Source: Bradyrhizobium quebecense (GTDB lineage Bacteria > Pseudomonadota > Alphaproteobacteria > Rhizobiales > Xanthobacteraceae). Taken from it: a DNA stretch of 64,000 bases. The stretch covers positions 1 through 64,000 of the forward strand of contig NZ_CP088025.1 in NCBI RefSeq assembly GCF_013373795.3. Reading direction: 5' to 3'. Shown here piece by piece: positions 1 through 15,137 of the stretch; position 1 is the first letter of the stretch; each line of letters opens with the position of its first letter. The notes beneath the pieces are model-generated. The model had not been told where the DNA came from and did no database searches. It saw only the letters and a list, made by a program, of their open reading frames with translations. Both the position numbers and the translations under genes were made by a program.

Positions 1-35
1 ACGGTGCGAGAGGGCCACGACTTGGCGCGGACGGC

Positions 36-680
36 CTACGCACCGCGCTTGAAGCGTATAGGCATCCAGAACTGCCGCAGGGCCTCAACGGCTACGGGAA
101 TGTCGCGCCGGACGTTTTGAGCGACGGGCAGCGTTCCCAGCGTGTGCCGGGCCGGGGGTAGCAAGGGCCGACCGGCGTCGTCGATGCAATGGACCAAGAT
201 CGGCCGCAGCATAAGGTGTTCGGTTCCGTTCGGGGAGAGAAGCCGCGACCAGACGAGAAGCCGAAGCTTCATGACGGCGTAGAAGCCCATGCACCAGGGC
301 TGCGGGTCGACTTCGCCGTCCGGTGATCGCACGAACAGCGGCTCGAAGCTCTCCGGTCCCGTCGACAGCGTCTCGCTGATTGCGTTGTGGCGCATCAGCG
401 TGGCGGCGATCGCCGAGAACTCCTCGGTGTCGTGATTGAAGGCGTCGCGATCTACGCCGAGGAGCGGGCACACCCATTCCTCGGACGCCATCGAGACCGG
501 CCCGGCAACGACCGCGGCCACCGCGCCGTCGAGCATGGAGAGCGACGTCGCCCGCGGACGCCGAAGCGTCGGCGACCTGGCGCGCTCGCTGATCCATTGC
601 CCGAGCCGTTCGAACGACATGGCATAGTCCGCCATCGTCGTCTTGGCCCGTTTTCCTCGCCGTTGCTTCGGCTTCGTCAT
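36..680 (-). CDS. UPF0149 (YecA-like) passenger protein of IS66 element
   Basis: A 214-residue protein resembling the UPF0149/YecA-type proteins that form the last gene of many rhizobial IS66 elements. No biochemical role is established for these passengers. Its ATG overlaps the TGA of tnpC in an ATGA at 677-680, so the two are translationally coupled. The N terminus is strongly basic (KPKQRRGKRAK) and is followed by mixed helical sequence. I see no C-terminal cysteine/histidine SEC-C tail like that of YecA. The reading frame is intact. The family call is by pattern only. Confidence 0.6.
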   Translation of the reverse strand: MTKPKQRRGKRAKTTMADYAMSFERLGQWISERARSPTLRRPRATSLSMLDGAVAAVVAGPVSMASEEWVCPLLGVDRDAFNHDTEEFSAIAATLMRHNAISETLSTGPESFEPLFVRSPDGEVDPQPWCMGFYAVMKLRLLVWSRLLSPNGTEHLMLRPILVHCIDDAGRPLLPPARHTLGTLPVAQNVRRDIPVAVEALRQFWMPIRFKRGA

Positions 681-2219
681 GCCACGGCCCGCTTTTCGGC
701 TTCGCGTGCGGCCTTCCAGTTCCAGGCCAGAAGTTCGTGCAGCTGGTTGGTCTTCGTGGCGCCGCTCACCATGCGATCGAGAACGTCGATGAGATACGCC
801 TCGGGGTCGAGACCATTCAATTTCGCTGTGTTAAGAAGCGAAGCGAGTATCGCCCAAGTCTCGCCCCCGCCTTCGTCACCACTGAACAACGAGTTCTTTT
901 TTCCGATCGCAATGGGCCTGATCGATCGCTCGACCGTGTTGGTGTCCGGCTCGAGCCGCCCGTCATCCAGGAACGCCGTCAGGCCCTGCCAGCGTTCGAG
1001 CATGTAGTCGATCGCCTTGATGAGCGTCGAGCGGCGGGAGATCCCGTCCTTCACCGCGATCAGACGGATCCTCAACGCTTCCATCAGCGGCTTCGTCTCG
1101 GCCTGTCGCGTCGCGCGGCGTTCCCCGGCGTCGAGACCGCGGATCCTCTCCTCGATCGCGTAGACGGCCGCAATGCGCTCGATGACCTCCGCGGCGAAGG
1201 GTGAGTTCGTCGTCTTGTGCACCCTCACGAAGTTGCGGCGCGCGTGAACGAGACAATACGCCAGCTGGATCTGGCCCGACATCTTCGCATCGCCCGCCAG
1301 CGAGGCGTAGGCGGCATAGCCGTCGACTTGCAGCACGCCTTCGAAGCCGGCCAACTGCGCCACGATCTCCTTCTTGCCGCGACCACCTGCGAACACGTAG
1401 GCGACCGCCGGCGGCGCCGGCCCCTTCCACGCCCGATCGTCCGTCGCGTGCGCCCAGAACTGGCAGATCCTCGTGCGGCCGCGTCCCGGATCGAGCACTG
1501 GCATCGGCGTCTCGTCGCAGAACAGCCGCTCGAAGCCGTGCATAGTCTTCAGTTGCAGATCGTAGAGGCCCCTGACCAGCCACGCCGCGCTCCCCATCCA
1601 GCGCGCCAGCGTCTGACGGTCGACGACGACACCCTGACCCGCCAGGATCTGCGTCTGGCGGTAGAGCGTCGATTGCCAGGCATATTTGGCCGCGGCGATA
1701 TGCGCGATCAGCGCCGTCGTCGCCATGCCGCCCTCGACGAGCCGCGCCGGTGCCGGGGCCTGGACAATCGCGCCCTCACAGGAGCGGCAGGCGTATTTTG
1801 GACGGATCGTGCGGAGCACACGCAGCCACCCGATCGAGCGCTTCGCTGCTCTCCTCGCCGATCCGATGCATCTGACCCGTGCAGCACGGGCACCGCGTGG
1901 ACGCCGGCTCGATCACCCGCTCGATCCGGGGCAGATGCGCCGGCAGTGCGCCGATGTTGCGCCTCGCTTTGCGCCGCTTCGGTCTCGGCGCGTCCGGTTT
2001 GTCGTCATTGGCCGGGAGCTGTGAGCCGGCGGTCGGTTCCAGATCAAACGCGATCTGTTCGGCGCAGACGATCGCCGAGCGCTCCGATCGTGCGCCGAAG
2101 ATCAGGCTCTTCAACGTGGCGATCTCTGCGCGCAGATCATCGTTCTCGCCTTCGAAAGCCAACACCATCTCGGCAAGAGCTGCAGGGTCACAGGGGAGAT
2201 CTTCGGGGCGAAGCGCCAT
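677..2219 (-). pseudogene. tnpC: IS66 transposase tnpC, frameshifted
   Basis: DDE transposase of IS66. The N-terminal 147 residues (start at 2219, with a CPCC zinc-finger-like motif) and the C-terminal 380 residues (677-1819, beginning LRTIRPKYACRSC and including FCDETPMP and NTVERSIRP) are in different frames. In intact relatives the segment between LDRV and VLRTIRP is about five residues longer. Here only five bases separate the two GTG codons near 1822-1835, which implies a deletion of about 10 bases. A full-length transposase cannot be made. The C-terminal frame is otherwise open and well conserved, so the damage looks recent. Confidence 0.85.
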
Positions 2220-2269
2220 ATCGCAGAGCTACACGAACACACTCACAATCGCCAGCAAAACAAGACGCG

Positions 2270-2626
2270 TCAGGCAACCTTCGTCGGCCGCTTCGTCACC
2301 TTGGGGACCACACGCGACCACTCCGCAAGACCTTCAATCAGCATCGCCAGTTGCGCCCCCGTTACCGGCATCGTACCCTCGTGAACAGGTGGCCAGGCGA
2401 AGCCCCCATTCTCCAGCCACTTCGTCGCTAGAACCATTCCCGAGCCGTCAAAAACCAGTAACTTCAAACGATCCGATCGCTTCGATCGGAAGACATAAAC
2501 GTCACCGCTGTAGGGCTTGCCGCCCAATCCCTCCGCTACCAGCGCGACAAGGCCATGAACGCCTTTACGAAAGTCAATCGGCTGCGTCGCGACGAACACA
2601 CGGACCATTGGACCGAAAGAGATCAT
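2270..2626 (-). CDS. tnpB: IS66 accessory protein TnpB
   Basis: A 118-residue protein of the IS66 Orf2/TnpB family, recognised from the pattern IATQPIDFRKG near residue 13 and VYVFRSKRSDRLK near residue 44. TnpB is required with TnpA for IS66 transposition, although its biochemical role is unclear. The start overlaps the tnpA stop (ATG within 2623-2626). It appears intact. It ends 50 bases before the tnpC start. Confidence 0.9.
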   Translation of the reverse strand: MISFGPMVRVFVATQPIDFRKGVHGLVALVAEGLGGKPYSGDVYVFRSKRSDRLKLLVFDGSGMVLATKWLENGGFAWPPVHEGTMPVTGAQLAMLIEGLAEWSRVVPKVTKRPTKVA

Positions 2627-3045
2627 CGCGTCGATCTCACCGCCGCCAGCACGCGCTCCAGCGTCGCAGTGTCGACGCGGACAGGCACGCGCACCGTCGC
2701 GCCCGCGATCATCACCTCGATCCGCTCGGCCGGCCCCGTCAGAACATGCGCCTTATCGATCGCGTTCGGCTGCGCCTCGACGGCGGCGTCGAGCCTGACT
2801 TGCACGAACTGCGGCGCTTCGCTCGACGCGAGCCGCGCCTGGCGCCGCCACACACTGAGCAGTCCCCGGTTCACCCCGTTGCGTCGAGCCACCTCGGAAA
2901 TGCTCGTCTCCGGATCGGCGCTCTCGGCCACGATCCGCGCCTTCTCCGCATCGCTCCAACTGCGCCGTCGCCTTTCCCCTGTGATCACCTCGATCCGTTG
3001 ATAGGAGGCGGCATCATGCCTGTCTTGATGTCTGTCTTGATGCAT
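2623..3045 (-). CDS. tnpA: IS66 accessory protein TnpA (helix-turn-helix)
   Basis: A 140-residue IS66 Orf1/TnpA protein. The N-terminal half has the transposase-type HTH pattern RRSWSDAEKARIVAES, then SISEVARRNGVNRGLLSVWRRQ. The C-terminal third matches the usual IS66 Orf1 tail (VRVPVRVDTATLERVLAAV). The first residues contain a short tandem repeat (HQDRHQDRH). It heads the tnpA-tnpB-tnpC run and looks intact. Confidence 0.9.
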   Translation of the reverse strand: MHQDRHQDRHDAASYQRIEVITGERRRRSWSDAEKARIVAESADPETSISEVARRNGVNRGLLSVWRRQARLASSEAPQFVQVRLDAAVEAQPNAIDKAHVLTGPAERIEVMIAGATVRVPVRVDTATLERVLAAVRSTR

Positions 3046-3127
3046 GGAACGAGCGTCCCTCGCGTTGTCAAATCCACGCGCGAGTCTCGCTCATCCCGTC
3101 CACTTAAACGAGGTGGGGTTGTCGTAC

Positions 3128-3956
3128 CGCTATCGATAGACGAAGCCTTGCGCCATCGGGATGTAGGTGATGTCCATCGCCCAGACCTGGTTCGGACGCG
3201 TGATCTCCATACCACGCAGCAGGTACGGATAGATCTTGTGGCCGGGCTCGGGTTGCGTGGTGCGCGGACGGCGATAGAGCGCCTCTATCCCCATCCGCCG
3301 CATTAGCGTTTTGACATGCCGGCGGCCGATCTTGCACCCCTCGGCAGCCAGCAGGCCTCGCAGCATTCGCGAACCGGCGAAGGGAAACTCCAGATGCATC
3401 CGGTCGAGCCTTTGCATCAGCGCGAGGTCTTTGGGCGGCACTGGACGCGGCAGATAGTAGACGCTGCCGCGGCTGATGTTCAGAGCTTCCGCCTGCTTGC
3501 CGATCGGCAGATCGTGTTCACGGTCGATCATCGCTTTGCGCTCAGCAATCCCGCCTTGGTGAGCGCTCCTTCTAAAAAACTGAGCGGGCGCTGCGCGCCC
3601 CCTGTGGGATATAAACGGGCGTCAACTCGCCGATCTTGGCATGCAGCGACTTCACGTCGACGGTGGGTTCGGCGATCCGACTCCCGCCGCCCGGACCGAA
3701 AACATCGGCAGCGCGGCCTTCGAGCTGGCCCTTCCACGATGTGATCTGATTGGGGTGAACGTCGAACTGCTCCGCTAGTTGCGCCAGCGTGCGGTCACCC
3801 TTGACGGCGGCAAGCGCCACCTTCGCCTTGAAAGCCGGAGTGTGGTTCCGCCGTGCTCGTCTGCTCATCGTCTCTCCTGATTCGCGGGTCAATCTTGCCC
3901 GCCGTCAGGCAGAAACTCCACTTATCGCACTGTTCAGATTTGCGGGACCGGCTCAA
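3128..3956 (-). pseudogene. IS3-family remnant (orfA and N-terminal half of orfB)
   Basis: orfA (start 3892) shows the IS3 HTH pattern FKAKVALAAVKGDRTLAQLAEQFDVHPNQI. orfB is present as its N-terminal 133 residues (3130-3531), with the HTH_21 region and the first part of the rve domain ending WAMDITYIPMAQGFVYR. The frame then stops where the IS66 element begins. Between orfA and orfB about 40 bases around 3590-3632 do not match the family sequence, which usually reads ELTLENDFLEGAL there, so the frameshift window is disrupted as well. The rest of orfB should lie left of the window if IS66 inserted here. Confidence 0.75.
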
Positions 3957-4006
3957 TCCTCGAATGGCTCGGAATAAAAACGTCAAAATCACTGTGATGA
4001 ACCACT
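3957..4006. mobile_element. Right-end remnant of an IS630 element
   Basis: About 50 bases are the same as the right end of the complete IS630 at 8890-8939, including the tail of the LexA-like passenger frame and the 24-bp terminal repeat ending GATGAACCAC. The rest of this copy is gone, replaced by the IS3 remnant. It ends 75 bases after the asparagine-synthetase-like gene. Confidence 0.85.
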
Positions 4007-4080
4007 AGCGAGAACGCCCAATTGCAACCCTTCTCCACTGTAGCAGGTGTTCTGACGCGTGATCGTTCGTCATAACGCAA

Positions 4081-5667
4081 TCAACAGAGTTGTCGAACGA
4101 AACGTTCCGCCCATAAAAAGCGAGCCAAGGTGCTTGTTGCGGAAAATTCGTGTGTTGTTATCACCCTGTTCAAGAGCGCCATGACAGCCTCTTGCGAAAC
4201 CAAGCCGAAGTCGGCCAAGGCGCAAGAAGCAAGCTGTGATGAAATTATGTCCGCACGAGCCGCAATCGCCTTTGGCAGTACAAGCGCGAAAGTCTCCTTT
4301 GCGTATCCGTGTGGAAATACGTCAGAGCCCAAGCGCTCACGCAAGTAAGAACGGAGGAGTTCCTTGCCCGAGCGAAGTGCAAACGGAAGCTTCGCTCCAA
4401 AATTGATCAATCTCGGATCGCCGAATGGGCGGACGGGCCAAAGACCTCGCGTCGCGAGTGGGCGAGCATGACAAAGACTTGCGAGCAGAGTTGTGGATAG
4501 AGTGGCGCTGAGGGGGGCGCTAAAAAGGAAGGATGAACGAGCGGCGTCGAGCCCACGTTTCGTCAACAGGTCTTCTGCAACCCCAAGCGCGATATCCAGA
4601 TGCGGTGAAGAGGGAGATCTGGGTTCCCCCTCGTCGCTGCTGAAGCGAGCGCAAAGCTCGTCTCCTCCTATGCCGGACCAGATTATTTCGCAGCCATCGC
4701 CGCGAAACCGATCCCAGAGTGACCCGAACGCCTCAAGGTAATACTCTGAATTGAGTGGCAGGCGTCCTTTCAGGTCAAGATCTAGATCAATCGCCGGCAT
4801 GTGGGCGCACATTTCAACTTTGTGATCGCGGCAGTTCAGTGCGCTCAAAGTGCTCGCTCGGCGATCAATCTGCTTGGGGCTACTCCCGTCGCCCAATAGT
4901 ATCCCGCCACATGCTAGCGATGCTACGCTCTCGCCAACAGCAATTGCGACGGAAGCGGAGTCCATTCCTCCGCTCAGCTCCACAGCGCTTGCGCAGAAGG
5001 TCGTCGGCCGCGAACGAACAACCGCCTGAAGAGTATCAGAAAACTCAAGGACATGATCGCCCTCCTCTCGTCCGGAGAGCTCAGGAGCTGATGAAGTTGT
5101 CGCGCCGTACTCAAATGACGTTTCCGATCTGTCGACGTACAAGGTGGAGCCAGCAGTCAGCAGGTTAACGCCAACGCAGGCCTGTCGCGCAGAGTAGAAC
5201 GTTCTCATCGACAGCTGATGCGCTATAATCTCTGCATCAATCGCTCGCGATTTATCCAAAAACTCGACAAAATCCCAGGAGAGCGTAACCGTGCGAGCGC
5301 GCTCCTCCACGTGGAAGTAAATTGGGAGGCTGCCAATATGGCCTGCTCGTACACGCAACCGAGGACCCCGGCGAGCGGCCTCGATCACGATAAAATCGAG
5401 CGGCCAGTGCATGCATTTCTGGTAGTGCTGACGAAACTGATCTGTAGACGCATGGTCTATTACGACCGAATGAACGCCAGCCCCGTCCGCCGCTCCTTGA
5501 CGCTCACGTATGACGAAGAACCATTGCTCAGTGCTCTTCACTAACGAGCTCTCAAGACTCTTATGTTGGAAAGGCCAGATGCAGCTTTCACCAAACTCTA
5601 TCGAACAGCCTTTGACAACAGGATCGAAGTTTTCCAGGTCGGCTATTTTCAGAGTGGCCTTGAGCAT
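4081..5667 (-). CDS. Asparagine-synthetase-like ATP-dependent amidotransferase (lasso-cyclase-like)
   Basis: A 528-residue protein of the asparagine synthetase B superfamily. The ATP-binding PP-loop reads SGGMDSAS at about residues 232-239, and a second synthetase-domain motif, SGIGGDELCA, lies at 331-340. The N-terminal 200 residues correspond to the glutaminase-like region but there is no Cys at position 2, so glutamine hydrolysis is not expected. That is also the case for lasso-peptide macrolactam synthetases (McjC type), which adenylate an Asp/Glu side chain and close the ring onto the N-terminal amine. The start is preceded by GAGGAA. A 47-residue ORF lies directly upstream on the same strand, with a strong hairpin between, and an ABC exporter is divergent from both. 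No leader protease or PqqD-like B gene is visible; the sequence downstream is cut by IS debris after 75 bases. A role in peptide maturation is inference. A plain amide or beta-lactam-type synthetase is the alternative. Confidence 0.8.
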   Translation of the reverse strand: MLKATLKIADLENFDPVVKGCSIEFGESCIWPFQHKSLESSLVKSTEQWFFVIRERQGAADGAGVHSVVIDHASTDQFRQHYQKCMHWPLDFIVIEAARRGPRLRVRAGHIGSLPIYFHVEERARTVTLSWDFVEFLDKSRAIDAEIIAHQLSMRTFYSARQACVGVNLLTAGSTLYVDRSETSFEYGATTSSAPELSGREEGDHVLEFSDTLQAVVRSRPTTFCASAVELSGGMDSASVAIAVGESVASLACGGILLGDGSSPKQIDRRASTLSALNCRDHKVEMCAHMPAIDLDLDLKGRLPLNSEYYLEAFGSLWDRFRGDGCEIIWSGIGGDELCARFSSDEGEPRSPSSPHLDIALGVAEDLLTKRGLDAARSSFLFSAPLSATLSTTLLASLCHARPLATRGLWPVRPFGDPRLINFGAKLPFALRSGKELLRSYLRERLGSDVFPHGYAKETFALVLPKAIAARADIISSQLASCALADFGLVSQEAVMALLNRVITTHEFSATSTLARFLWAERFVRQLC

Positions 5668-5685
5668 TTGTTCCTCGACTTAAAC

Positions 5686-5715
5686 GTTACCGCCTCTCGT
5701 GTGAGAGGCGGTAAC
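5686..5715 (-). promoter_or_regulatory. Perfect 13-bp stem hairpin between candidate precursor and cyclase-like gene
   Basis: GTTACCGCCTCTC at 5686-5698 pairs perfectly with 5703-5715 around a 4-base loop. On the minus strand it follows the small ORF stop by 17 bases and precedes the synthetase start by 19 bases. Only a weak T tract (GTTTAAG) follows, so it may act as a partial terminator or 3' stabiliser that gives more precursor than enzyme. Such stem-loops between A and the maturation genes are known in lasso-peptide operons. Confidence 0.75.
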
Positions 5716-5731
5716 AGAGTGAAGAATGATC

Positions 5732-5875
5732 TTAAAGGTAACCTTCGTTAGCGCTGTCGCTAGGGAAGGGGCCCTTCGGATACGAAGTAGTGGGAGGTGG
5801 CAGCACCGGTAAGGGGAGGTCAGTTGTATCGGGCCGCGATGGCCGCTTAGACGTGTCTGCAGTTGCGCTCTTCAT
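5732..5875 (-). CDS. Candidate precursor peptide (47 residues)
   Basis: ATG at 5875, preceded by AGGAAC at good spacing, opens a 47-codon frame ending TAA at 5732. The peptide is polar at the N terminus, proline-rich in the middle (LPLPVLPPP, residues 20-28) and ends YPKGPFPSDSANEGYL. There is no signal peptide or transmembrane stretch. It sits in tandem with the synthetase gene. If Thr30 is taken as the leader residue at -2, as in most lasso precursors, the core starts at Tyr32 and Asp40 falls at core position 9, a ring size known for lassos. A glycine start at Gly35 would put Asp at 6 and Glu at 10, which does not fit. The peptide may belong to another class, or be a non-peptide-product gene. 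The function is inferred from position only. Confidence 0.55.
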   Translation of the reverse strand: MKSATADTSKRPSRPDTTDLPLPVLPPPTTSYPKGPFPSDSANEGYL

Positions 5876-6085
5876 GTCGTGTTCCTATTGATAGCGTGAT
5901 CGGGCTTCTCGTCGCGTGGCGCGGCAGCGTGTCGAGCCACTCTATAGCGTCTCTCATGTGAGAAGCCGGGCGACAACCTACCAAGATTTGCGGGTTGGAT
6001 GACGGTGCTGGACAGAATTGGGTTGGAGCTTAGTAACGGTAAACGGCAGCAAATTCCGCAGAGCCGCATCTTTACGTGAGATCGT
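5876..6085. promoter_or_regulatory. Divergent intergenic region of the peptide-like locus
   Basis: This 210-base interval separates two divergently transcribed units (small peptide plus synthetase leftwards, exporter rightwards), so both promoters should lie here. A loose dyad of GGCTTCTC at 5903-5910 and GAGAAGCC at 5960-5967 could be an operator. I could not define -35/-10 boxes with confidence. Confidence 0.4.
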
Positions 6086-7479
6086 ATGGAATCCAGATCG
6101 CAAGGCCATGTCGGCTCTCTCAGTGCAAGCAAAGCCCCATTCCCTGGATCCGCCGCAGATCAGGTCAACGACAGCACATTGTCGCCGGTTTCCGAACTTC
6201 TGCATGCGTACTGGCGATCCGATCGGCGCTTGCTTCTCATCGTTGCCACAGTGGTGCTGATCTCCAGCACGAGCAGCGTCGCAGCCCCCTATGTATTTTC
6301 GGGTCTCATTGATCGCCTCCCGCGGGGGGAAGGCATGTCGGCGTTTGCCTGGGGATTCGCCGGCTATGCGGTCCTGCTCGGCATAGCCTCCGCATTGCAG
6401 CGCATGCTGCAGTATCTTTTCTTCATGACAGCCGAGAACCTGGGCTTCATCGCTGCAACTCGCTTTTTCGATCGCATCCTGAGAAAAACCTCAGCCTTTC
6501 TTCTTGAGCACAATCCCGTGGAGATACAGAGTGCGGCTGCGCGCGGGTGCAGCGCGTTGACGACGTTGGTCCAGCTTGGAATTATGATATTCATCCCGGC
6601 TGCAGCGCAGCTTCTGCTTACGCTCGCTATTCTCGGTGTGCTCGTCAATATCCAGATCGCTGCAATCGTCGTCGCTTATGGGGCTGTCGCGATTACATTG
6701 GGGTGGAGTTCCACGCGTCGGGCGCGCGTGTTTCTGGACCGGGCCATCGAAGCCGGACAGGAGAATGCGCGTTTCGTCGGCAACGTCATGAACTCCATGG
6801 ACACGTTGCGCCATTTCGGCAGTCATTCCTGGACGAGCCAGCGCTTTACGATGAAGGCGCGGGAAGTGCGCGATAACTGGCGAACCTACGTGTTTCAACG
6901 ATTGGCCTACATAGCCGTGCTCGGCTTAGCCATCGCGCTACAATTTGCCGTCACACTTCTCCTTCTAATACCTGAATACCGGGCCGGCGCGGTCACGATC
7001 GGCGATATTGTGCTATTCAACACGCTTCTACTCCAACTCAATATGCCCTTCGAGATGGTCGCGCGCGCGATCTCTGACGCGGCGCGGTCGCGAGCCGACC
7101 TCATTCCTCTCGCCAGACTGTGGGTCGCACCAGAAGAGCGGCGAACATCTCATGCTCATGATTTCACGCCCTCCGCTGGCCAGCTATCCTTCGAGGGCAT
7201 TGGTTATGCCTACAACAACGGTCGTGGCGTTACGAATGTCTCGTTTCTGGCTAGGCGCGGCGCCATTACCTTCCTTGTCGGCGAATCCGGATCGGGGAAG
7301 TCGACAATATTCAAGCTCGTCCTGAAATCGATTGAGCCAGACTGCGGCCGTATTCTGGTCGATGGAACCGATATAGCGACCATCGATCACACGGATTGGT
7401 ATGCCGCAGTTGCTGTTGTGCCGCAGGAGGTGATGTTGCTCAATGAGTCGCTAGCCGACAACATTCTGCTAGTGGTTCA

Positions 7480-8610
7480 TCACAGTGATTTTGACTCTTT
7501 GACGACGGCCGGATAGGCGCGGCGGAGTTTGGCGCGGGCTTTGTCGGTTGTGAACATCCACTTGATGCGGTCTTGCGCCTTGTTTCGCTGCCGTTGCCAT
7601 GCCGCGATCTCGTTTCGGAGCTTTTTGGGGTCGTCGATGCGGCGGCCGAGACACTGGCGCTGCAGCACGCTGATCTCGCGCTCAACCATGTTGGGCCAAC
7701 TGGCGTGTTTCGGGGTGTAGTGGAATTCGAGGCGGCGCAGGATGCGCCGGGCTTCGGCGGGCGCAAATGCTTGATACAGCGCACCGGCGGTATGGATCGA
7801 CAGATTGTCCTGCACGACACGGATGCAGGCGGCTTCGGGATAATGGACGTCGACGAGTTCACGCATGCAATGGGCGTAGTCGACGGCGGCGCGGCGCTCG
7901 GTCGCCTTCACGTTGCGCCACCCCCGATGTGGATCGAAGGTAACGAAGAGATTGACGGTGCCATTGCGGCGGTACTCGTAATCGTAGCGCTCGCGCTGTC
8001 CGGGCTTGGCGGAGACCGGCTGGCGCACCTCGCCGATCAGCTGGACCGGGGTCTCGTCGAAGCAGACCAGCGGCCGGGCCGGATCCGGCCTCTCGGCGTA
8101 GAGGTCAAGCACGTCCTCCATGCGGGCGACGTATTCGCCATCGACATGAGGAATGCACCACATGTCCCTGCGCCATGGCTTGAGGTCGTTCTCCGCCAGC
8201 CGGCGGCGCACGGTCTCGCCCGACAAGCTGTCGTGATCGGTGAGCTTGACCATCGCGTTGGCCAGCAGCGTCAGCGTCCAGCGTTTGCGGCCGGCCGGCG
8301 GCTTGGCGCATGCGGTCGCCACCAGCAGGGCCTCCTCCTTGCCCGTCAGCTTGCGTTCCGCCCCTGGACGCGGCTCCTCGCTCAGGGCCCGCTCCAGATT
8401 GCCTTCCACGAAGCGGCGCTTGGTCCGATAGACGGTGGAGAGGCTGACACTTACGGTCCGGGCAATCCCCTCGTCGCGGCGCCCTCCATCGGCCGCCAGC
8501 AAAATCTGCGCCCGCTTGAGCTTGCGGGCGGCGCACTTGCCGCCGCCGAGCATCGCCGTCAGTTCGTCTCGCTCGGCTTGGCTCAATTCGACCCGATAAC
8601 GGACATTCAT
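7480..8610 (-). CDS. IS630-family transposase
   Basis: Intact DDE transposase. I take the start at 8610 (MNVRYRVEL); an upstream in-frame start at 8658 would add 16 residues. An N-terminal HTH region (RTVSVSLSTVYRTKRRF) is followed by the catalytic triad context: CFDETPVQL, VVQDNLSIHT and FHYTPKHASWPNMVERE. The stop lies within the left inverted repeat. No frameshift was seen, so this copy is probably active. Confidence 0.93.
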   Translation of the reverse strand: MNVRYRVELSQAERDELTAMLGGGKCAARKLKRAQILLAADGGRRDEGIARTVSVSLSTVYRTKRRFVEGNLERALSEEPRPGAERKLTGKEEALLVATACAKPPAGRKRWTLTLLANAMVKLTDHDSLSGETVRRRLAENDLKPWRRDMWCIPHVDGEYVARMEDVLDLYAERPDPARPLVCFDETPVQLIGEVRQPVSAKPGQRERYDYEYRRNGTVNLFVTFDPHRGWRNVKATERRAAVDYAHCMRELVDVHYPEAACIRVVQDNLSIHTAGALYQAFAPAEARRILRRLEFHYTPKHASWPNMVEREISVLQRQCLGRRIDDPKKLRNEIAAWQRQRNKAQDRIKWMFTTDKARAKLRRAYPAVVKESKSL

Positions 8611-8649
8611 CCTTTGCCTCCTTGTCGGAAGACCGGGACGAATCGATCC

Positions 8650-8931
8650 ATGAGTCAAAAATCAGGCGCGCGCTTCACCCAGAAGCAGGGGCACTACCTC
8701 GCTTTCATCTACACATATTCCAACATGTTCGGACAGCCGCCCGCCGAGAAAGACATCCAGCGCCACTTCCGCGTCAGCCCGCCTTCGGTCCACCAAATGA
8801 TCGTAACTCTCGAACGAAACGGATGCATCCGTCGTCAACCCGGCGTCCCAAGGAGCATCGAAATTCTCGTGCCGCCGGAAAGCTTGCCGATCCTCGAATG
8901 GCTCGGAATAAAAACGTCAAAATCACTGTGA
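8650..8931 (+). CDS. LexA-type winged-helix passenger of the IS630 element
   Basis: A 93-residue protein transcribed divergently from the transposase. The pattern KQGHYLAFIYTYSNMFGQPPAEKD, then VSPPSVHQMIVTLERNGCIRR, is that of the LexA N-terminal DNA-binding domain. No LexA peptidase half follows. The gene ends inside the right inverted repeat, so it belongs to the IS. Its last codons also survive in the remnant at 3957-4006. It may regulate the divergent transposase promoter; that is inference. Confidence 0.8.
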   Translation: MSQKSGARFTQKQGHYLAFIYTYSNMFGQPPAEKDIQRHFRVSPPSVHQMIVTLERNGCIRRQPGVPRSIEILVPPESLPILEWLGIKTSKSL

Positions 8932-9371
8932 TGAACCACTAGGACGGCCCCGCGACGAGGTGCGCCTTCGCGGTGCATCGGAAAAAGCCGCTATTCTCCC
9001 CATTATCGAGGCTCTGCCGGAAGGATTTGAAACAACCGTTGGAGAACGCGGTTTGAAGCTTTCAGGCGGGGAGCGCCAGCGTATTGCTATTGCCCGCGCG
9101 CTCTATGGCGAGCCGGCGATCCTTCTTCTCGACGAGGCCAGCTCCGCGCTTGACGAACGAGCCGAGCGGGACATTTTGGACCATATTCGCAGCCTAGCGG
9201 AAGATGTGACCGTGCTGGCAATCACTCATCGCAAAGGGGTCATTTCTACAACCGACGTCGTGGTCGAGCTGACCGACTGCGGCTTGTCCTTGACATAGGC
9301 GAAGGGGATGATCAGCCCGGCGCGTTGATTGTCTGCACTGCAGGCGCATTGCTGGACGAGATGTGACCTTG

Positions 9372-9570
9372 CCCCCAGATTTTATCCAGTTCTGAGTTCG
9401 CTCAAGCCATTGGATTTGCCCAGTTGGGCGGTGGTAGCGACGGGAGCTGGCGCGGAGCCATCGGCATAGCGCAGCGCCAGATCCCGGCGCGGGTGGCAGG
9501 TGAAGGCGAACTCGGAGGGTGTCTTCCATCCGAGCTGTGAGTGCGGTCGTGTGTAGTTATACAACAAGGC
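9372..9570 (-). pseudogene. IS3-family orfB, C-terminal fragment
   Basis: About 60 residues starting LYNYTRPHSQLGWKTPSEFAF, the typical C-terminal end of an IS3 orfB transposase after the third catalytic residue. The N-terminal part is absent; the break lies at the YN codons, where the serine-recombinase cassette begins. Confidence 0.8.
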
Positions 9571-9573
9571 TCA

Positions 9574-10151
9574 AGAACGCCCACAGGACCGTTCTTCGCG
9601 AGGTTCTTTATCGGCATCATCCCTGGTTTGGTCGCCGAGTTTGCGTTCATGGGGCGGTCGACAAGGTTGACGATGTCGTTTTTCGCTGCACCCTGGACGG
9701 ATCGCAAGCAGACCGTTGGCTGGAAGTTCCAGCATGGATGTTCGACCGGACGGCCTGCCCTGACGCCGAGCTTCTGACAGCTCAGCCGTTTGTTAGCATC
9801 GATGCACTTGCGGCGCTCGCTGCGCTTCTCGATCTGGCGTTGAAGGATCGAACGCCATCAGCTGCCCCGCTTTCTGGCGCATCCAGAGGCTCTCACGACC
9901 AGAATCGGGGAGCGACTCATGTCACGCGAGACGGCAATGCCAGGGAGCGGATACCGACACAATCGACAACCGCGGTTGCAGCAGCAGATGGATCTGTTCG
10001 GGGGCGGCCTGTCGAACGGCGCCCTCGGCGCGCCGGCATGGTCGGAGCTGCCGGGGGAAGCGCGGGCGGCCCTCACAAGCCTGATGACGCAGTTGATGCT
10101 CGACCATGCTGCGATGACAGCGACGCCGCCCGCGAAGGGGGGCGATCATGA
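9574..10151 (+). CDS. DUF5372-like protein upstream of serine recombinase
   Basis: The conserved core lies at about 9600-9840: HPWFGRRVCVHG, then WLEVPAWMFDRTAC and PFVSIDALAALAALLDLAL. A protein with the same core (HPW or YPW, VPxWMFD, VSIxxL) precedes the recombinases of the other two cassettes in this window. The open frame runs to 10151, across the next gene, which is longer than expected. I suspect the authentic C terminus has been shifted or lost near 9880. The start is not certain; no clear ATG with a ribosome site was found upstream of the core. Its role is unknown, presumably in the recombinase element. Confidence 0.5.
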
Positions 10152-10158
10152 TCTCTGA
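9919..10158 (+). CDS. Small conserved protein between DUF5372-like gene and recombinase
   Basis: A 79-residue hydrophilic protein with the segment QQQMDLFGGGLSN and a helical C-terminal half (LTSLMTQLMLDHAAM). It overlaps the recombinase start by 11 bases. A protein of similar size and position (21601-21792, with MQLGLDLRLRIP) occurs in the second cassette type, which supports a real gene. Function unknown. Confidence 0.6.
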   Translation: MSRETAMPGSGYRHNRQPRLQQQMDLFGGGLSNGALGAPAWSELPGEARAALTSLMTQLMLDHAAMTATPPAKGGDHDL

Positions 10159-12217
10159 CAAGGTCAGGCCTCATCATCTGGAGCGTAAGGCGATTCTTTA
10201 CGTGCGCCAATCCTCAGCACATCAGGTGTTGCACAATCGCGAGAGCAGCGCATTGCAATACGCCATGCGGGACCGGCTGACGGCACTCGGGTGGTCAGAG
10301 ATCGAAGTGATCGATGATGATCTCGGTCGTTCAGCCGCCGGTGGCGTGCAACGCGCCGGTTTCGAGCGAATGGTAGCGGAGGTTTGCCTCGGTAAGGTCG
10401 GTGCCGTTTGCGCCCGCGAGGTCTCGCGCTTCGCCCGCAACAGCCGGGATTGGCAGCAACTCATCGAGATGTGCCGCGTGGTCGATACCGTTCTGGTCGA
10501 TCAGGAGACTATCTATGCGCCAAGGCACGGCAACGACCGCCTGCTGCTCGGGCTCAAGGGCAGCCTCAACGAGTACGAACTGGATTTGTTGCGCCAACGC
10601 TCGCTCTCGGCCCGCTACGAGAAGGCGCGCCGGGGCGAGTTGGTTGTGGCGGCGCCCGTCGGCTTCGTGAAGGCCGGCGACCATTATGAGAAAGATCCGG
10701 ATCGGCGTGTCCAGGAAGCGATCAAGCTGGTGTTCGACAAGGTCGACGAACTGGGCAGCGCGCGACAGGCGCTCTGCTGGCTCCACGAGTACAATCTCGA
10801 TCTACCAGTGAAGCAGTCCAACGGCGACACAGCCTGGCGGCGACCGAGTTACTCCGCCATCCACCGGATCATTGAGACCCCGGTCTACGGCGGCGCCTAT
10901 GCCTATGGTAAGACGGCTGTGGCGGCGGGATACAGCGCCGGGGGCGTGAGCGTGAAGATCCGCCGCAAGACACGGAACGAATGGCTGGCGCTGAAGCCCA
11001 ACACCCACGACGGGTATGTGAGCTGGGAGAGGTTCGAGGCGATCCGCACCATGGTCAGCAGCAACGTTCCCACCGGTCGGCATCACGGCGCACCCAAGCA
11101 TGGTGACGCGCTGCTGGCCGGTCTGATCCGGTGCAAGCGCTGCGGCCGCAAGCTCACACTCCGGTACTCCGGCATGAAGCACCATATCCCACGCTACAGC
11201 TGCAGCCGCGCCTGGATGGACAATGGCGGTCCTCACTGCATCGCCTTCGGCGGATTGCGTGTCGATGATGCAATCGAGGAAGCACTGCTTGGCGTCGTCG
11301 GTCCGGGCGCTATCGCCGCTGCAACCGCTGCCGCCAAGGAAGCCAGGGAACGGCGGGATCAGGTGCGCGATGCGCTCAGTCGCGATCTGGAAGCGGCGCG
11401 CTATGCCGCCGACCGGGCTTTCCGGCAATACGATGCCGCTGACCCCGCGAACCGGTTGGTGGCGAGTGAGCTGGAAGCGCGCTGGAACAGGGCACTCGCT
11501 CACGCGGCGGAGGTCGAGGGCAAGATCGCCATGCATGATGCGGCCACGCCCGCACCCATTGCCGATCCAGCTTCGCTCGGCGTACTGGCCTCGAACCTCA
11601 AAACGGTCTGGGATGCGCCGACGACGGATGCTCGTCTCAAGAAGCGCATTGTACGCACCCTCGTCCATGAGGTCGTGGCCGATATAGACGACGCGGCGTC
11701 CGAGATCGTTCTCATCGTCCACTGGGTGGGTGGCGCTCACAGCGAGTTGCGCTTGCCCAAGCGCCGGCGCGGACAGCGCAACAGCACTTCCGCCGATATT
11801 ATCCAAGCCGTGCGTCAACTGGTGCTGATCGCCAGCGACGATCTGATTGCCGGCCTCCTCAACCGAAACGGCCTCAAGACGGGCAACGGCAATCGCTGGA
11901 CCCGCGAGCGCGTCACATCGATGCGCTCGAGCTACCACCTCCCGGTGTTCAAGCCCGCCGATGACGGGATCGAACCCTGGCTCAACCTGAGCAACGCCGC
12001 AAAGCTCCTGAAGGTCGCGCCCAAGACGCTCCGGCTGGCCGCGGAAGCAGGCGAAATCGCAGCCATCCATCCGCTATCGGACGGCCCGTGGATCTTTGCT
12101 CGCGCCTCGCTGATAACAGCTGCCGCTCAGTCTATCGCCGAACGAGCGCGACAGAACCCAAGATACCCCACAGGATCGCATCCCGATCAGCAAACTCTCT
12201 TCTCTTCAACAACATAG
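10148..12217 (+). CDS. Large serine recombinase
   Basis: 689 residues. The resolvase-type catalytic domain has its nucleophile motif YVRQSS at residues 18-23 and the arginine motif VSRFARNSRDW near residue 95. Next come the recombinase domain (about residues 165-290), a zinc ribbon (LIRCKRCGRKL with a later YSCSR) near 325-355, a coiled-coil stretch near 400-460, and a C-terminal region with a DNA-binding-like segment (LNLSNAAKLLKVAPKTLRLAAEAGEI). It is full length and intact. The enzyme would cut and rejoin DNA at short core sites. It is the only undamaged recombinase of the three in this window. Confidence 0.88.
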   Translation: MISDKVRPHHLERKAILYVRQSSAHQVLHNRESSALQYAMRDRLTALGWSEIEVIDDDLGRSAAGGVQRAGFERMVAEVCLGKVGAVCAREVSRFARNSRDWQQLIEMCRVVDTVLVDQETIYAPRHGNDRLLLGLKGSLNEYELDLLRQRSLSARYEKARRGELVVAAPVGFVKAGDHYEKDPDRRVQEAIKLVFDKVDELGSARQALCWLHEYNLDLPVKQSNGDTAWRRPSYSAIHRIIETPVYGGAYAYGKTAVAAGYSAGGVSVKIRRKTRNEWLALKPNTHDGYVSWERFEAIRTMVSSNVPTGRHHGAPKHGDALLAGLIRCKRCGRKLTLRYSGMKHHIPRYSCSRAWMDNGGPHCIAFGGLRVDDAIEEALLGVVGPGAIAAATAAAKEARERRDQVRDALSRDLEAARYAADRAFRQYDAADPANRLVASELEARWNRALAHAAEVEGKIAMHDAATPAPIADPASLGVLASNLKTVWDAPTTDARLKKRIVRTLVHEVVADIDDAASEIVLIVHWVGGAHSELRLPKRRRGQRNSTSADIIQAVRQLVLIASDDLIAGLLNRNGLKTGNGNRWTRERVTSMRSSYHLPVFKPADDGIEPWLNLSNAAKLLKVAPKTLRLAAEAGEIAAIHPLSDGPWIFARASLITAAAQSIAERARQNPRYPTGSHPDQQTLFSSTT

Positions 12218-12390
12218 ACAGATGGGTGTTCTGATGCGCGGTTGTAGAAGTCGAGGTATCGGCCAATCGAGGCTCGAGCTTCGCTGACGTTCTCGTAGGC
12301 CCGCAGATAAACCTCCTCGTATTTGACGCTGCGCCACAGCCGCTCGACGAACACGTTGTCCCGCCAGGCGCCCCGGCCGTCCATACTGAT
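12207..12390 (-). pseudogene. IS3-family orfB fragment
   Basis: Reads MDGRGAWRDNVFVERLWRSV, then RYLDFYNRA, the region around the catalytic glutamate of an IS3 orfB. The match is lost right after the YN codons where the recombinase cassette ends. At its other side it is fused in frame to an IS110 fragment. Confidence 0.8.
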
Positions 12391-12540
12391 GGCGACTAGG
12401 CAAGGTACGAGCGAGGAGAAGAACGACACGATCTCGCCTGGCCGGAGGCGTTGGCGACAGGCCACTTGGCCTTGGCCATCAACGGCATGGATGTGAAATA
12501 CGTGCTTCGAAACGTCCAACCCAATTGTCGCGACTTCCAT
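12391..12540 (-). pseudogene. IS110-family transposase, N-terminal fragment
   Basis: Fifty residues starting MEVATIGLDVSKHVFHIHAV, the DEDD-type RuvC-like N terminus of IS110 transposases (GLDVSK motif). The rest has been replaced by the IS3 fragment, giving a meaningless in-frame fusion. Confidence 0.8.
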
Positions 12541-12615
12541 TGGTGAACTGCTGCTGTTAGCGGGTTCGTCCATCGCCAGCATATCGCCGGCGCCGAGGGA
12601 GCGGGCCGTCTTCCC

Positions 12616-12711
12616 CATCAATGGCCGGATGCGCGATGAGCTGCTCAACGAGACCCTGTTCTTCGATCTTGGCGGTGCCCGCGCCAAGATCGAAGAACAG
12701 GGTCGACGATG
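12616..12711 (+). pseudogene. IS3-family orfB scrap containing a fold-back palindrome
   Basis: Thirty codons read INGRMRDELLNETLFFDLG, the IS3 orfB motif after the catalytic glutamate, then GARAKIEEQGRR and a stop. The last codons are the reverse complement of the preceding ones; see the repeat at 12652-12704. Confidence 0.75.
12652..12704. repeat. 23-bp perfect inverted repeat with 7-base spacer
   Basis: The arm 12652-12674 (GACCCTGTTC...GGCG) is the exact reverse complement of 12682-12704. In related IS3 genes only about the inner 11 bases (CGATCTTGGCG / CGCCAAGATCG) would be naturally self-complementary, so the outer 12 look added by copying of the opposite strand. Confidence 0.9.
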
Positions 12712-13796
12712 ACAATCTCCGGCAGCCTCACTCGTCGCTGTAATATGTTACCCTCCGCGGCCTATGCAGCCCACCTCACCGCAACGGACGATCGGCTACG
12801 CAACCCCGACCAGCTTCGCCGATCGTTCGTTGCTCCAACCGCGCCACTTGGCGTCCAAGATCCCGACACTCTAATGCCGCTGGATGAAATTTCAGTGGCA
12901 GGTCCATTCGTGAATCCATGATCGCTCCTCCAGATTGGTTAGAAGCCGACATTGTGGTTCGATAGATGCACAACTTAAATTCCGATTCGAGTTTTGCAGG
13001 TGTCAGGGTTGCAGTCGCGCGTAAGCGCGCAATCAATCTGCAACCCCGCACACTCGGATCAGCGCATTCGGTCAAGCTTAGAAGCACCAGGCCCCCCCGT
13101 TTCATATGATGATGCCACGGCTCAGTTTGATAGAGGCAGTGATACGCCTCATTCACCGTCGTCGAGCGAGTCGTTCTTGGCCCGGCTCGGTACTTTCGAA
13201 CGAGCAGTTCACTTGTCGATTGGAGACACCCAAGGCCAGAGGCGCGGAACGTGCCAACATCAACATCAATACGGTGGCGCAAAGTTCGCTACGCCCAGGG
13301 GAGGGGTCAATCGAGCCGCGCGATCAGGCCGATCCAAGGGGATTGGCGGAGACAGATGCCCCACGTGGGCGACGGAAGTCGTACAGCGGAAAACCGTGGC
13401 CAACGACAGGATAGATCGGGGCCGTCTGTATAAAATTGCTCATCGCCAGAAAAAGATTGTTGGCGGAGAGCAATGGGCGCTTGGAACCATCGATGAACCG
13501 GAACCATTAGAATTGTTGGGTGCCTTCCCGCGCTGGGGCGTGCCCGGGGCGGTCCCGGTTTTTGCCCCCCAGCCCCGACCGGGACCGTTCACTTAAAAGC
13601 TGGCTTCAGCCAGACAAATTTAGCTTGTGCGTTTGCGCCATAATACCGCATTTTTCGCCGGCAATCCCCCGCTTTCCCGGGCCAGTCGTCAGATGGATAG
13701 GGCAGACCGGCAGCCGCTTAGTCTTACTGCGTCACAAATCATGACGGCGCATCGACCTGGATTTGGACTGCGCAGCACGGACATCTACGTAGCCGG
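12712..13796. other. About 1.1 kb without a supported gene
   Basis: Open frames of 170-200 codons exist on both strands (for example 12994-13596 plus, 12776-13282 minus) but none shows a recognisable domain, and their composition looks like random high-GC frame. Probably decayed sequence between IS copies. Confidence 0.5.
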
Positions 13797-15137
13797 CTAA
13801 CCAATGCGCTGGTAAGGCGCCGCCGCATGGTAGCGATCGAATTCGGAATATGACGCTCGGTTCTGAGCGGTAGCGCCCCGCGGCTTTTGATTTTTGGGAA
13901 GCGCAAATTCTTTGACGAACGCGGGCCGACGAGGTCGTGAGGGGGGAATCGTCTCCCTTTCGGAGATCAGGAAGCCGTAGGCGGCGATGCATAACGTGGC
14001 GTGGTGATGGAAGCCGCGCCAACCACGCCCTTCATAATGCCCCAGGCCGACCTCCTGCTTGAGCTCTTGGTAGTCGCGTTCGATGCGCCATCTGAGCTTG
14101 GCGAAGTTGACCAGGGCGCGGAAGGAGATGTTTTCAGGCAGTGTCGAGAACCAGTATTTGGTCGGCTCCGCCTCGCCGTCAGGCCATTCGATCAACAGCC
14201 ATTCCTCCGCACGGGGCTCGCTCAGCCAGTAATCGCGATTAGCGGGACGGACCCGAACGCGTGCAAAGCGCGAGGTCAGCCAATCAGCACTGCCTTCGCG
14301 CCATCTGACATTGCGCCAGGCCGTTCTCGGCAGCGCGAGCGCGAGCGCCTTGACTGAGCAGGGCTTATTTTTGTCGTCGCGCCGGATCAGCTTTGGCGGC
14401 CGCCCATTCCCAGACCATCGCTTTGGTGGCAGCGGTCTCGTGCCTGGTGGCCAGACAGAGGTGTGCGGCAAGATACCGGCAACATAGCGCAACCCCAGTG
14501 CCGTCACTTCCCCGCGCAGCGCGGTATCGGCCCCATATCCCGCATCCATCAGCACAACACCGCGTGCAATGCCCGCTGCACACGCCGACCGGATCTGCTC
14601 CAGCGCGATCTCAGGCTTGGTCTTGAAGGTGACATCCTTTGGTACGCCCGCCTTCTCTCGGCGATCCTCATCCTCGGCCCAACTTTCCGGCAGGTACAAA
14701 CGGTAGGCGATCGGCAAACTCGCATGATGATTGGCAATCGATAGCGAGACCGCCACTTGGCAATTGTCCTGCTTGCCAAGCTGACCGCAGTATTGCCGTG
14801 CCACGCCAACCGAATGCCGCCCTTTCTTGGGAAAGCCAGTATCATCGATGATCCAGGCCTCGATCGGACCGTGTCGCTCGATCTTGGGCTGGACCATCTC
14901 TCGCACCTTGCTCAAGACCTTCTCGTCCGACCATCCGCCCGCGCCGACGAAATGCAATAATGATTGATGCTGGGCCGCCGTTCGCTCCGGGGCTGTTATC
15001 GCCGCCATCGGCTCGACGCTTTTGCGATCCCCGGGCAGCATCAGGCCAACACAGTAGTCCCTCAGCGGTCTCGTCCGATCCGCGTGCCCGATCACGCTCG
15101 CCAAACCCTCGACATTAGGCCGTAAATCGCGATTCAC
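13797..15137 (-). CDS. IS701-family transposase
   Basis: 446 residues, full length for the family, without interruption. It shows the IS701 DDE pattern: AWIIDDTGFPKKGRHSVGVARQY (first Asp), VVLMDAGYG (second Asp) and LRWRIERDYQELKQEVGLGHYEGR (Glu). A possible passenger is absent and I could not find the terminal repeats. It is probably an active or recently active copy, since neither stops nor shifts are present. Confidence 0.9.
   Translation of the reverse strand: MNRDLRPNVEGLASVIGHADRTRPLRDYCVGLMLPGDRKSVEPMAAITAPERTAAQHQSLLHFVGAGGWSDEKVLSKVREMVQPKIERHGPIEAWIIDDTGFPKKGRHSVGVARQYCGQLGKQDNCQVAVSLSIANHHASLPIAYRLYLPESWAEDEDRREKAGVPKDVTFKTKPEIALEQIRSACAAGIARGVVLMDAGYGADTALRGEVTALGLRYVAGILPHTSVWPPGTRPLPPKRWSGNGRPPKLIRRDDKNKPCSVKALALALPRTAWRNVRWREGSADWLTSRFARVRVRPANRDYWLSEPRAEEWLLIEWPDGEAEPTKYWFSTLPENISFRALVNFAKLRWRIERDYQELKQEVGLGHYEGRGWRGFHHHATLCIAAYGFLISERETIPPSRPRRPAFVKEFALPKNQKPRGATAQNRASYSEFDRYHAAAPYQRIG

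Follow-up and report, generated by a model that had tools for sequence, protein, structure and literature searches.

A peptide cassette with an asparagine-synthetase-like enzyme in Bradyrhizobium: a candidate Lys-Asp macrolactam system, probably outside the lasso class

What is made by a peptide locus that has the synthetase and exporter expected of a lasso-peptide cluster and no leader protease that can be found? This question is raised by a cassette at positions 4081-9298 of the window, i.e., the first 64,000 nucleotides of contig NZ_CP088025.1 (contig C4 of the four-contig, 9.17-Mb genome G000) of Bradyrhizobium quebecense; stretches nearly identical to it are Bradyrhizobium plasmids. The cassette comprises a gene for a 47-residue peptide (A), an AsnB-like (asparagine-synthetase-like) enzyme (C), and a divergent ATP-binding cassette (ABC) exporter (D) split by an insertion sequence (IS) of the IS630 type (Table 1). 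The first-pass annotation of this DNA had described a synthetase without the glutaminase Cys, a small open reading frame (ORF) with a ribosome site just upstream on the same strand, and a fused exporter facing away from both, and had read them as a compact locus for a ribosomally synthesized and post-translationally modified peptide (RiPP). All of these descriptions stood, with AGGA found ahead of the ATG of A and GAGGA ahead of that of C, and it is well supported that A-C-D is a RiPP system. The same annotation had also linked the locus to lasso peptides and had supposed either that a leader protease gene (B) was lost at the IS junction below C or that the class may not need one; of these ideas only the dispensable B agrees with the results below.

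The association of the three genes was recurrent. C matches were obtained in 17 of the 242 sampled Bradyrhizobium genomes, 14 of which held real copies or remnants; the other three (G169, G183, and G220) were weak AsnB-like hits and not copies of C. Because full-length C was present in ten of the 242 genomes, and an intact A frame stood just before C in all ten, the cassette is more than a chance arrangement, and the small upstream ORF is indeed conserved among homologues. Counted by locus, intact A frames precede C in L006, L009, L012-L016, and L047-L053, and one precedes a decayed C in L054. Against a reference of window positions 3000-9999, the alignment covered C, A, and D in L012, L016, L047-L051, and L054; C and everything up to the beginning of D in L009 and L013; C and A in L006; and C only in L052 and L053 (70-71% identical). 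L055 was rearranged. The conserved unit is A-C-D. Uninterrupted exporters, which the first-pass annotation had proposed to look for in related rhizobia together with a B gene, do exist: intact 580-residue copies of D were found in L007, L012, L016, L047, L048, and L049. B. stylosanthis BR 446 is one strain that carries an intact D. Since the window can be compared with other loci only up to the IS junction, the flanks of the other copies were compared with each other, and no stretch was common to all downstream flanks of C in the 13 other copies (up to 6 kb each, 1.6 kb for L016). Flank matches of at least 100 bases joined only pairs or trios of loci: L006/L009/L013 and L012/L050 shared 182-188 bases, L009/L013 727 bases, and the close pair L050/L051 5.5 kb. 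Further matches, scattered among L009, L013, L014, L047, and L052, have the look of mobile DNA. As nothing beyond C is common to all related loci, there is no suggestion of a lost B gene.

The precursors share one feature. ORFs before C were first read in Bradyrhizobium, two Mesorhizobium, Aminobacter (identical to one of the Mesorhizobium), R. leguminosarum, X. sacchari, B. japonicum, and Streptomyces (L045), and the rule of a Lys and an Asp separated by five residues (Lys-x5-Asp) was set down after the first loci, the motif in L045 not having been noticed at first. It was present, mostly near the C terminus, in all nine divergent groups first compared, three of them Streptomyces, and as Lys-x5-Glu in a tenth, L141. 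Later loci that fitted were L087, L088 (same group as B. japonicum L046), L089, L091, and L092; L086, L090, and L093-L096 also fitted, being near-copies of others. Lys was invariant, and across the groups no residue ahead of it was conserved. The product of the per-peptide shuffle chances in the nine groups was 3.5e-7 with any position allowed, no other residue pair with a gap of up to 15 exceeded six of nine groups, and shuffled precursor sets reached at most eight of nine (four of 200 sets). The motif with a tail of 6-10 residues occurred in 19 of 2061 distinct ORFs of 30-60 residues (0.9%, from 18 loci, with precursors of that length included), and a second, unconserved K-x5-D was seen in three Bradyrhizobium leaders.

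Variation among Bradyrhizobium copies was recorded separately. The tripeptide ahead of Lys is highly variable (SYP, QGE, EGE, KTP, and KWP in window A, L006, L009, and L050-L053), and much of the leader and the Lys-x5-Asp are kept in the same copies, as in diversifying RiPP cores. The ratio of nonsynonymous to synonymous substitution rates (dN/dS) of A was mixed, with dS above dN in 16 of 21 pairs and dN above dS in five, and therefore simple purifying selection on A is not claimed.

C possesses both the PP-loop SGGxDS (here SGGMDS) and the two-domain AsnB fold, and it matched Pfam Asn_synthase (PF00733) at 27.9 bits. Enzymes of this fold adenylate a carboxylate; the amidating ones take ammonia from Gln by means of a Cys domain, while lactam makers, such as beta-lactam synthetase and the lasso cyclases, have no such Cys and rely on an amine that the substrate itself provides. 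Cys at residue 2 was found in none of the 24 family rows compared, among which the row of L046 begins at a truncated annotated start and that of L087 has Cys at residue 3. Side-chain chemistry on Lys and Asp is the probable role of C, and as the best explanation we think it rather likely that C closes a macrolactam between the Lys and Asp side chains while the precursor is still uncleaved and that D exports the product. C would bind the N-terminal leader of A and, with ATP, adenylate the side-chain carboxylate of Asp; without an ammonia source, it would then let an amine of the peptide attack. The reacting amine is presumably the Lys side chain, because this is the only conserved amine in the precursors. 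The prediction is thus a macrolactam that joins the side chains of Lys(i) and Asp(i+6) and ends in a short C-terminal tail; on export by D, this product would be trimmed by some other protease. A side-chain lactam is the simplest product, because there is no Cys, no leader protease was found, and an invariant Lys stands at a fixed distance from Asp/Glu. Alternatively, C could amidate the Asp carboxylate or attach an external amine, as AsnB, TsrC, or PesC do, with Lys serving for recognition. Some asparagine-synthetase-like (AS-like) enzymes do turn RiPP C termini into amides or nitriles (PMC13060819); however, C is without the N-terminal nucleophile Cys, the target would be an internal Asp rather than the C terminus, and the fixed Lys-Asp spacing would be left unexplained, so that we hold this alternative to be improbable.

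The relationship to lasso peptides was examined from the sides of the enzyme, the protease, and the precursor. On the lasso cyclase model NF033535, window C scored 20.8 bits against a cut-off of 525 and five of six other family members 16.4-35.7 bits (L044 was not listed), whereas lasso cyclases of the same order scored 791 (L076) and 782 bits (L062). On TIGR01536, the model of glutamine-dependent asparagine synthetase, C reached 19.0 bits (cut-off 267.1). In a quick tree, C formed a branch of its own with members from Bradyrhizobium, Mesorhizobium, Rhizobium, Xanthomonas, Burkholderiales, Streptomyces, and another alphaproteobacterium, remote from the proteobacterial lasso cyclases. The tree was made without L141, actinobacterial lasso cyclases, and beta-lactam synthetase, its seven lasso rows included six beside a match to PF13471 (lasso leader protease) and two checked with NF033535, and its inner placement is unsure because of long branches (L091). 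An ordinary AsnB was ruled out by the tree and the profile scores. The absence of lasso cyclases from the Foldseek and VIA lists was uninformative.

PF13471 had no match in G000 or in any of 12 further genomes that carry C or what remains of it (including G325 and two with decayed C, G010 and G192); in the order as sampled, the same search gave matches in 21 of 249 genomes, and 18 of these scored over the cut-off. In all five PF13471 loci that were opened, a cyclase of 636-641 residues is preceded by an ORF that resembles a precursor and has ITQ directly ahead of Gly1, with Asp9 further on, although these control precursors were picked with a lasso-shaped pattern. K-x5-D with a tail of 6-10 residues was absent from the candidate ORFs listed for the five control loci, and, conversely, no Thr or Gly was conserved ahead of Lys across the C-linked precursors. 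Asp would fall at a lasso ring position (7-9) only if the core started at Lys (D7) or, in some Bradyrhizobium, at Gly (G1-D9); an early idea of a Gly1-Asp9 ring was dropped, as neither the window copy nor the precursors from outside Bradyrhizobium have this Gly. Judged by the defining features given in PMC10368454, lasso membership as put forward by the first-pass annotation was rejected as a class assignment, and it was kept as a mechanistic rival. In that case, an unlinked or unrelated protease would cut immediately before Lys, and C would bond the backbone amine freed on Lys1 to Asp7, with threading of the tail. The core, mostly of 13-17 residues, would have a 7-residue ring, a size known for xanthomonins (from the reference list of PMC10368454), and C is distantly related to lasso cyclases. 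Nevertheless, with PF13471 missing from all carriers searched, and with the lasso precursors of the order marked by T(-2)Q(-1), Gly1, Asp9, and a PF13471 gene where here only Lys is invariant, we consider a lasso-like product unlikely.

ABC exporters near C in L087, L088, L091, and L141 shared 45-50% identity with intact Bradyrhizobium D (L012), and because this level is kept although the C proteins there have only about 24% identity to Bradyrhizobium C, D seems, as judged from sequence comparison, to be a dedicated part of the system. Streptomyces ABC proteins matched D over the ATPase only, and some loci, e.g., L043 and L046, have no exporter annotated nearby. A further explanation is that the Lys-Asp pair is a binding motif only and that C does something else, such as forming a lactone or a beta-lactam or releasing a small molecule from a carrier peptide. 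The best profile match of C in the PDB was beta-lactam synthetase (E 3.8e-5) and the nearest fold was TsnB9, which is not known to act on ribosomal peptides. However, C is found together with related ABC exporters in several groups, and the residues on either side of the fixed pair differ from copy to copy; we rate this explanation as very improbable. The catalytic Tyr of beta-lactam synthetase lies at the motif GYGAD; its position is variable in the C family (I, V, Y, T, S, F, or M).

Several points weigh against a side-chain macrolactam. No product is known for A-C-D, the sequence also allows a Lys1-Asp7 ring of 7 residues in which the backbone amine forms the bond, and the absence of PF13471 leaves room for another protease. 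The strict K-x5-D failed in one of six later cases, the blind case L141 having Glu, and the tail after Asp has 26 residues in L041 and 30 in L053. The ORF before C was unannotated in L087, L088, L091, and L141 (the last two from unannotated genomes) and was chosen by hand, for L091 in knowledge of the motif; it was likewise chosen by hand in L046, where a different small ORF is annotated. Moreover, the nine groups are not nine independent lineages, as three are Streptomyces and the Xanthomonas C groups with Mesorhizobium in the tree, and the motif comparison was made without the precursors of Cupriavidus, Burkholderia, metagenome, and further Streptomyces C proteins.

The spread of the family was surveyed more widely. 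Searches with A1 matched 41 of 397 genomes and those with A3 53 of 397 (same kind of sample) and 43 of 279; the matches were mostly AsnB/lasso-length rows at weak E-values, not inspected singly, and by E-value only G325 and G1005 were new members. The phylum sample gave no member beyond G000 at E 1e-9, with only three to six first-look candidates scored per genome in this and the Bradyrhizobium sample, which may hide members.

The features of the locus are collected in Table 1.

Table 1. Coordinates of the cassette and adjoining features in the window
Feature	Position	Strand	Basis
A: 47-residue precursor peptide MKSATADTSKRPSRPDTTDLPLPVLPPPTTSYPKGPFPSDSANEGYL	5732..5875	-	ORF; homologous frames before C elsewhere
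Lys34-x5-Asp40, predicted crosslink pair of A	5756..5776	-	K-x5-D in 9/9 groups; K-x5-E in tenth, L141
RNA hairpin between A and C, 14-bp stem	5685..5716	-	Folding of 64-base A-C spacer
C: asparagine-synthetase-like enzyme, predicted macrolactam synthetase, 528 residues, without N-terminal Cys	4081..5667	-	ORF, Pfam
D first part: ABC exporter membrane domain and ATPase start	6086..7468	+	PF00664 and PF00005
IS630-type element interrupting D	about 7469-8942		Annotated IS630 family transposase in near-identical B. quebecense plasmid
IS630-type transposase inside D	8658..7480	-	ORF
D second part: remaining ATPase domain	8943..9298	+	PF00005, profile 99-136; aligns to intact copies
Intergenic region between A and divergent D	5876..6085		Position only
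End of second IS630-type copy below C	3956..4008		Matches IS end in L048

The hairpin between A and C had z values of -8.2 in the window copy, -5.9 in L006, and -7.2 in L009 (three copies folded) and perhaps sets the A:C dosage; the intergenic region presumably holds the promoters of both A and D. The second IS630-type end sits 72 bases below the C stop. Dense mobile DNA was observed at 1-3900 and 7469-15137, with IS66-family genes (annotated in the near-identical L011), the IS630-type element, further transposase-like ORFs, and a recombinase-family protein at 10148-12217. A second A-C copy (L006), with C 91% identical to that of the window, lies on the largest contig, C1 (8.7 Mb), of the same genome, and about 10 kb from it L007 holds an intact D beside frameshifted A and C remnants. 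L006 and L007 (C1, about 5,823,500-5,837,000) look like a second version of the cassette torn in two by mobile elements, and this copy might complement the broken plasmid exporter.

Other neighbours differ between groups. An APH-family kinase with a GNAT occurs after C in L041, L042, L087, L088, and L093 (Pfam was run for L041 and L088), the kinase alone in L040 and L046, and a methyltransferase in L089. Formyltransferase-like proteins, 35% identical, were seen with C and an exporter in two distant alphaproteobacteria (L091, 8528-9331; L141, 11630-12436 of the reverse complement), as called by Pfam for L091 and by homology. In the groups that have them, the kinase, with or without GNAT, the methyltransferase, or the formyltransferase-like protein may decorate the product or protect its maker; the kinase and GNAT could tailor the Ser after Asp or give self-protection. 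In the R. leguminosarum group (L044, L086, L090, L094, L095, and L096) several loci lie beside rhiA and/or an acyl-homoserine-lactone synthase, which suggests quorum-sensing control of the peptide-synthetase pair. In X. sacchari (L043, 2199-13938) genes for two S9-family peptidases and an oligopeptide symporter are found on the flanks of the pair, and the S9 family counts lasso isopeptidases among its members.

Based on the results of this study, the A-C-D family looks like little-explored peptide natural products rather than lasso peptides. In the 2026 preprint PMC13060819, about 3,800 RiPP-linked AS-like candidates are counted, about 3,500 lasso and about 300 without a known reaction, and the enzymes described comprise lasso cyclases, two that amidate (TsrC and ScdTA), and one that makes a nitrile (PesC); the C family may belong to the 300. 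No published account of it was found among the matches listed in the open-licence PMC literature or by a term search of the review PMC13352647. We lean slightly towards a separate RiPP class, in which an AsnB-like enzyme, and not an ATP-grasp ligase, forms the Lys-Asp side-chain macrolactam before any cleavage of the precursor, so that the lasso leader protease is not needed; judged by sequence, it would extend over rhizobia, Xanthomonas, and Streptomyces, and over Burkholderiales by the synthetase alone. The precursors give a specific and testable prediction: one Lys, one Asp, a fixed spacing, and -18 Da. If it is true, side-chain stapling evolved in the AsnB fold as well as in ATP-grasp ligases, the enzyme may work without leader cleavage and without a partner protein and would be useful for making lactam peptides, and nodule bacteria have a new secreted peptide, adjoining rhi/quorum-sensing genes in the R. 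leguminosarum group.

Among known systems, lasso systems (A, B, C, and D) share the short precursor, the AsnB-like C without the glutaminase Cys, the ABC exporter, and the expected carboxylate activation with amide closure; here, by contrast, no B was found, Lys is conserved instead of Thr(-2)/Gly1, and C lies in another branch, hundreds of bits under the NF033535 cut-off. Beta-lactam and carbapenam synthetases resemble C in the whole-length fold, in lacking the glutaminase Cys, and in intramolecular amide formation, but their substrates are small molecules and not a genetically coupled peptide. TsrC, ScdTA, and PesC are likewise AsnB-like enzymes acting on a ribosomal peptide; however, their target is the C-terminal carboxylate, for which PesC uses Gln or ammonia, whereas the C family is without the Cys and keeps an internal Lys-Asp pair. 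The graspetides of the microviridin type (cf. PMC13097080) share the predicted product, a Lys-Asp/Glu side-chain lactam on an uncleaved precursor, but there the ligase is of the ATP-grasp type (the genomes here were unsearched for unlinked ATP-grasp enzymes), while C is a PF00733 protein of the AsnB/beta-lactam synthetase fold with a PP-loop.

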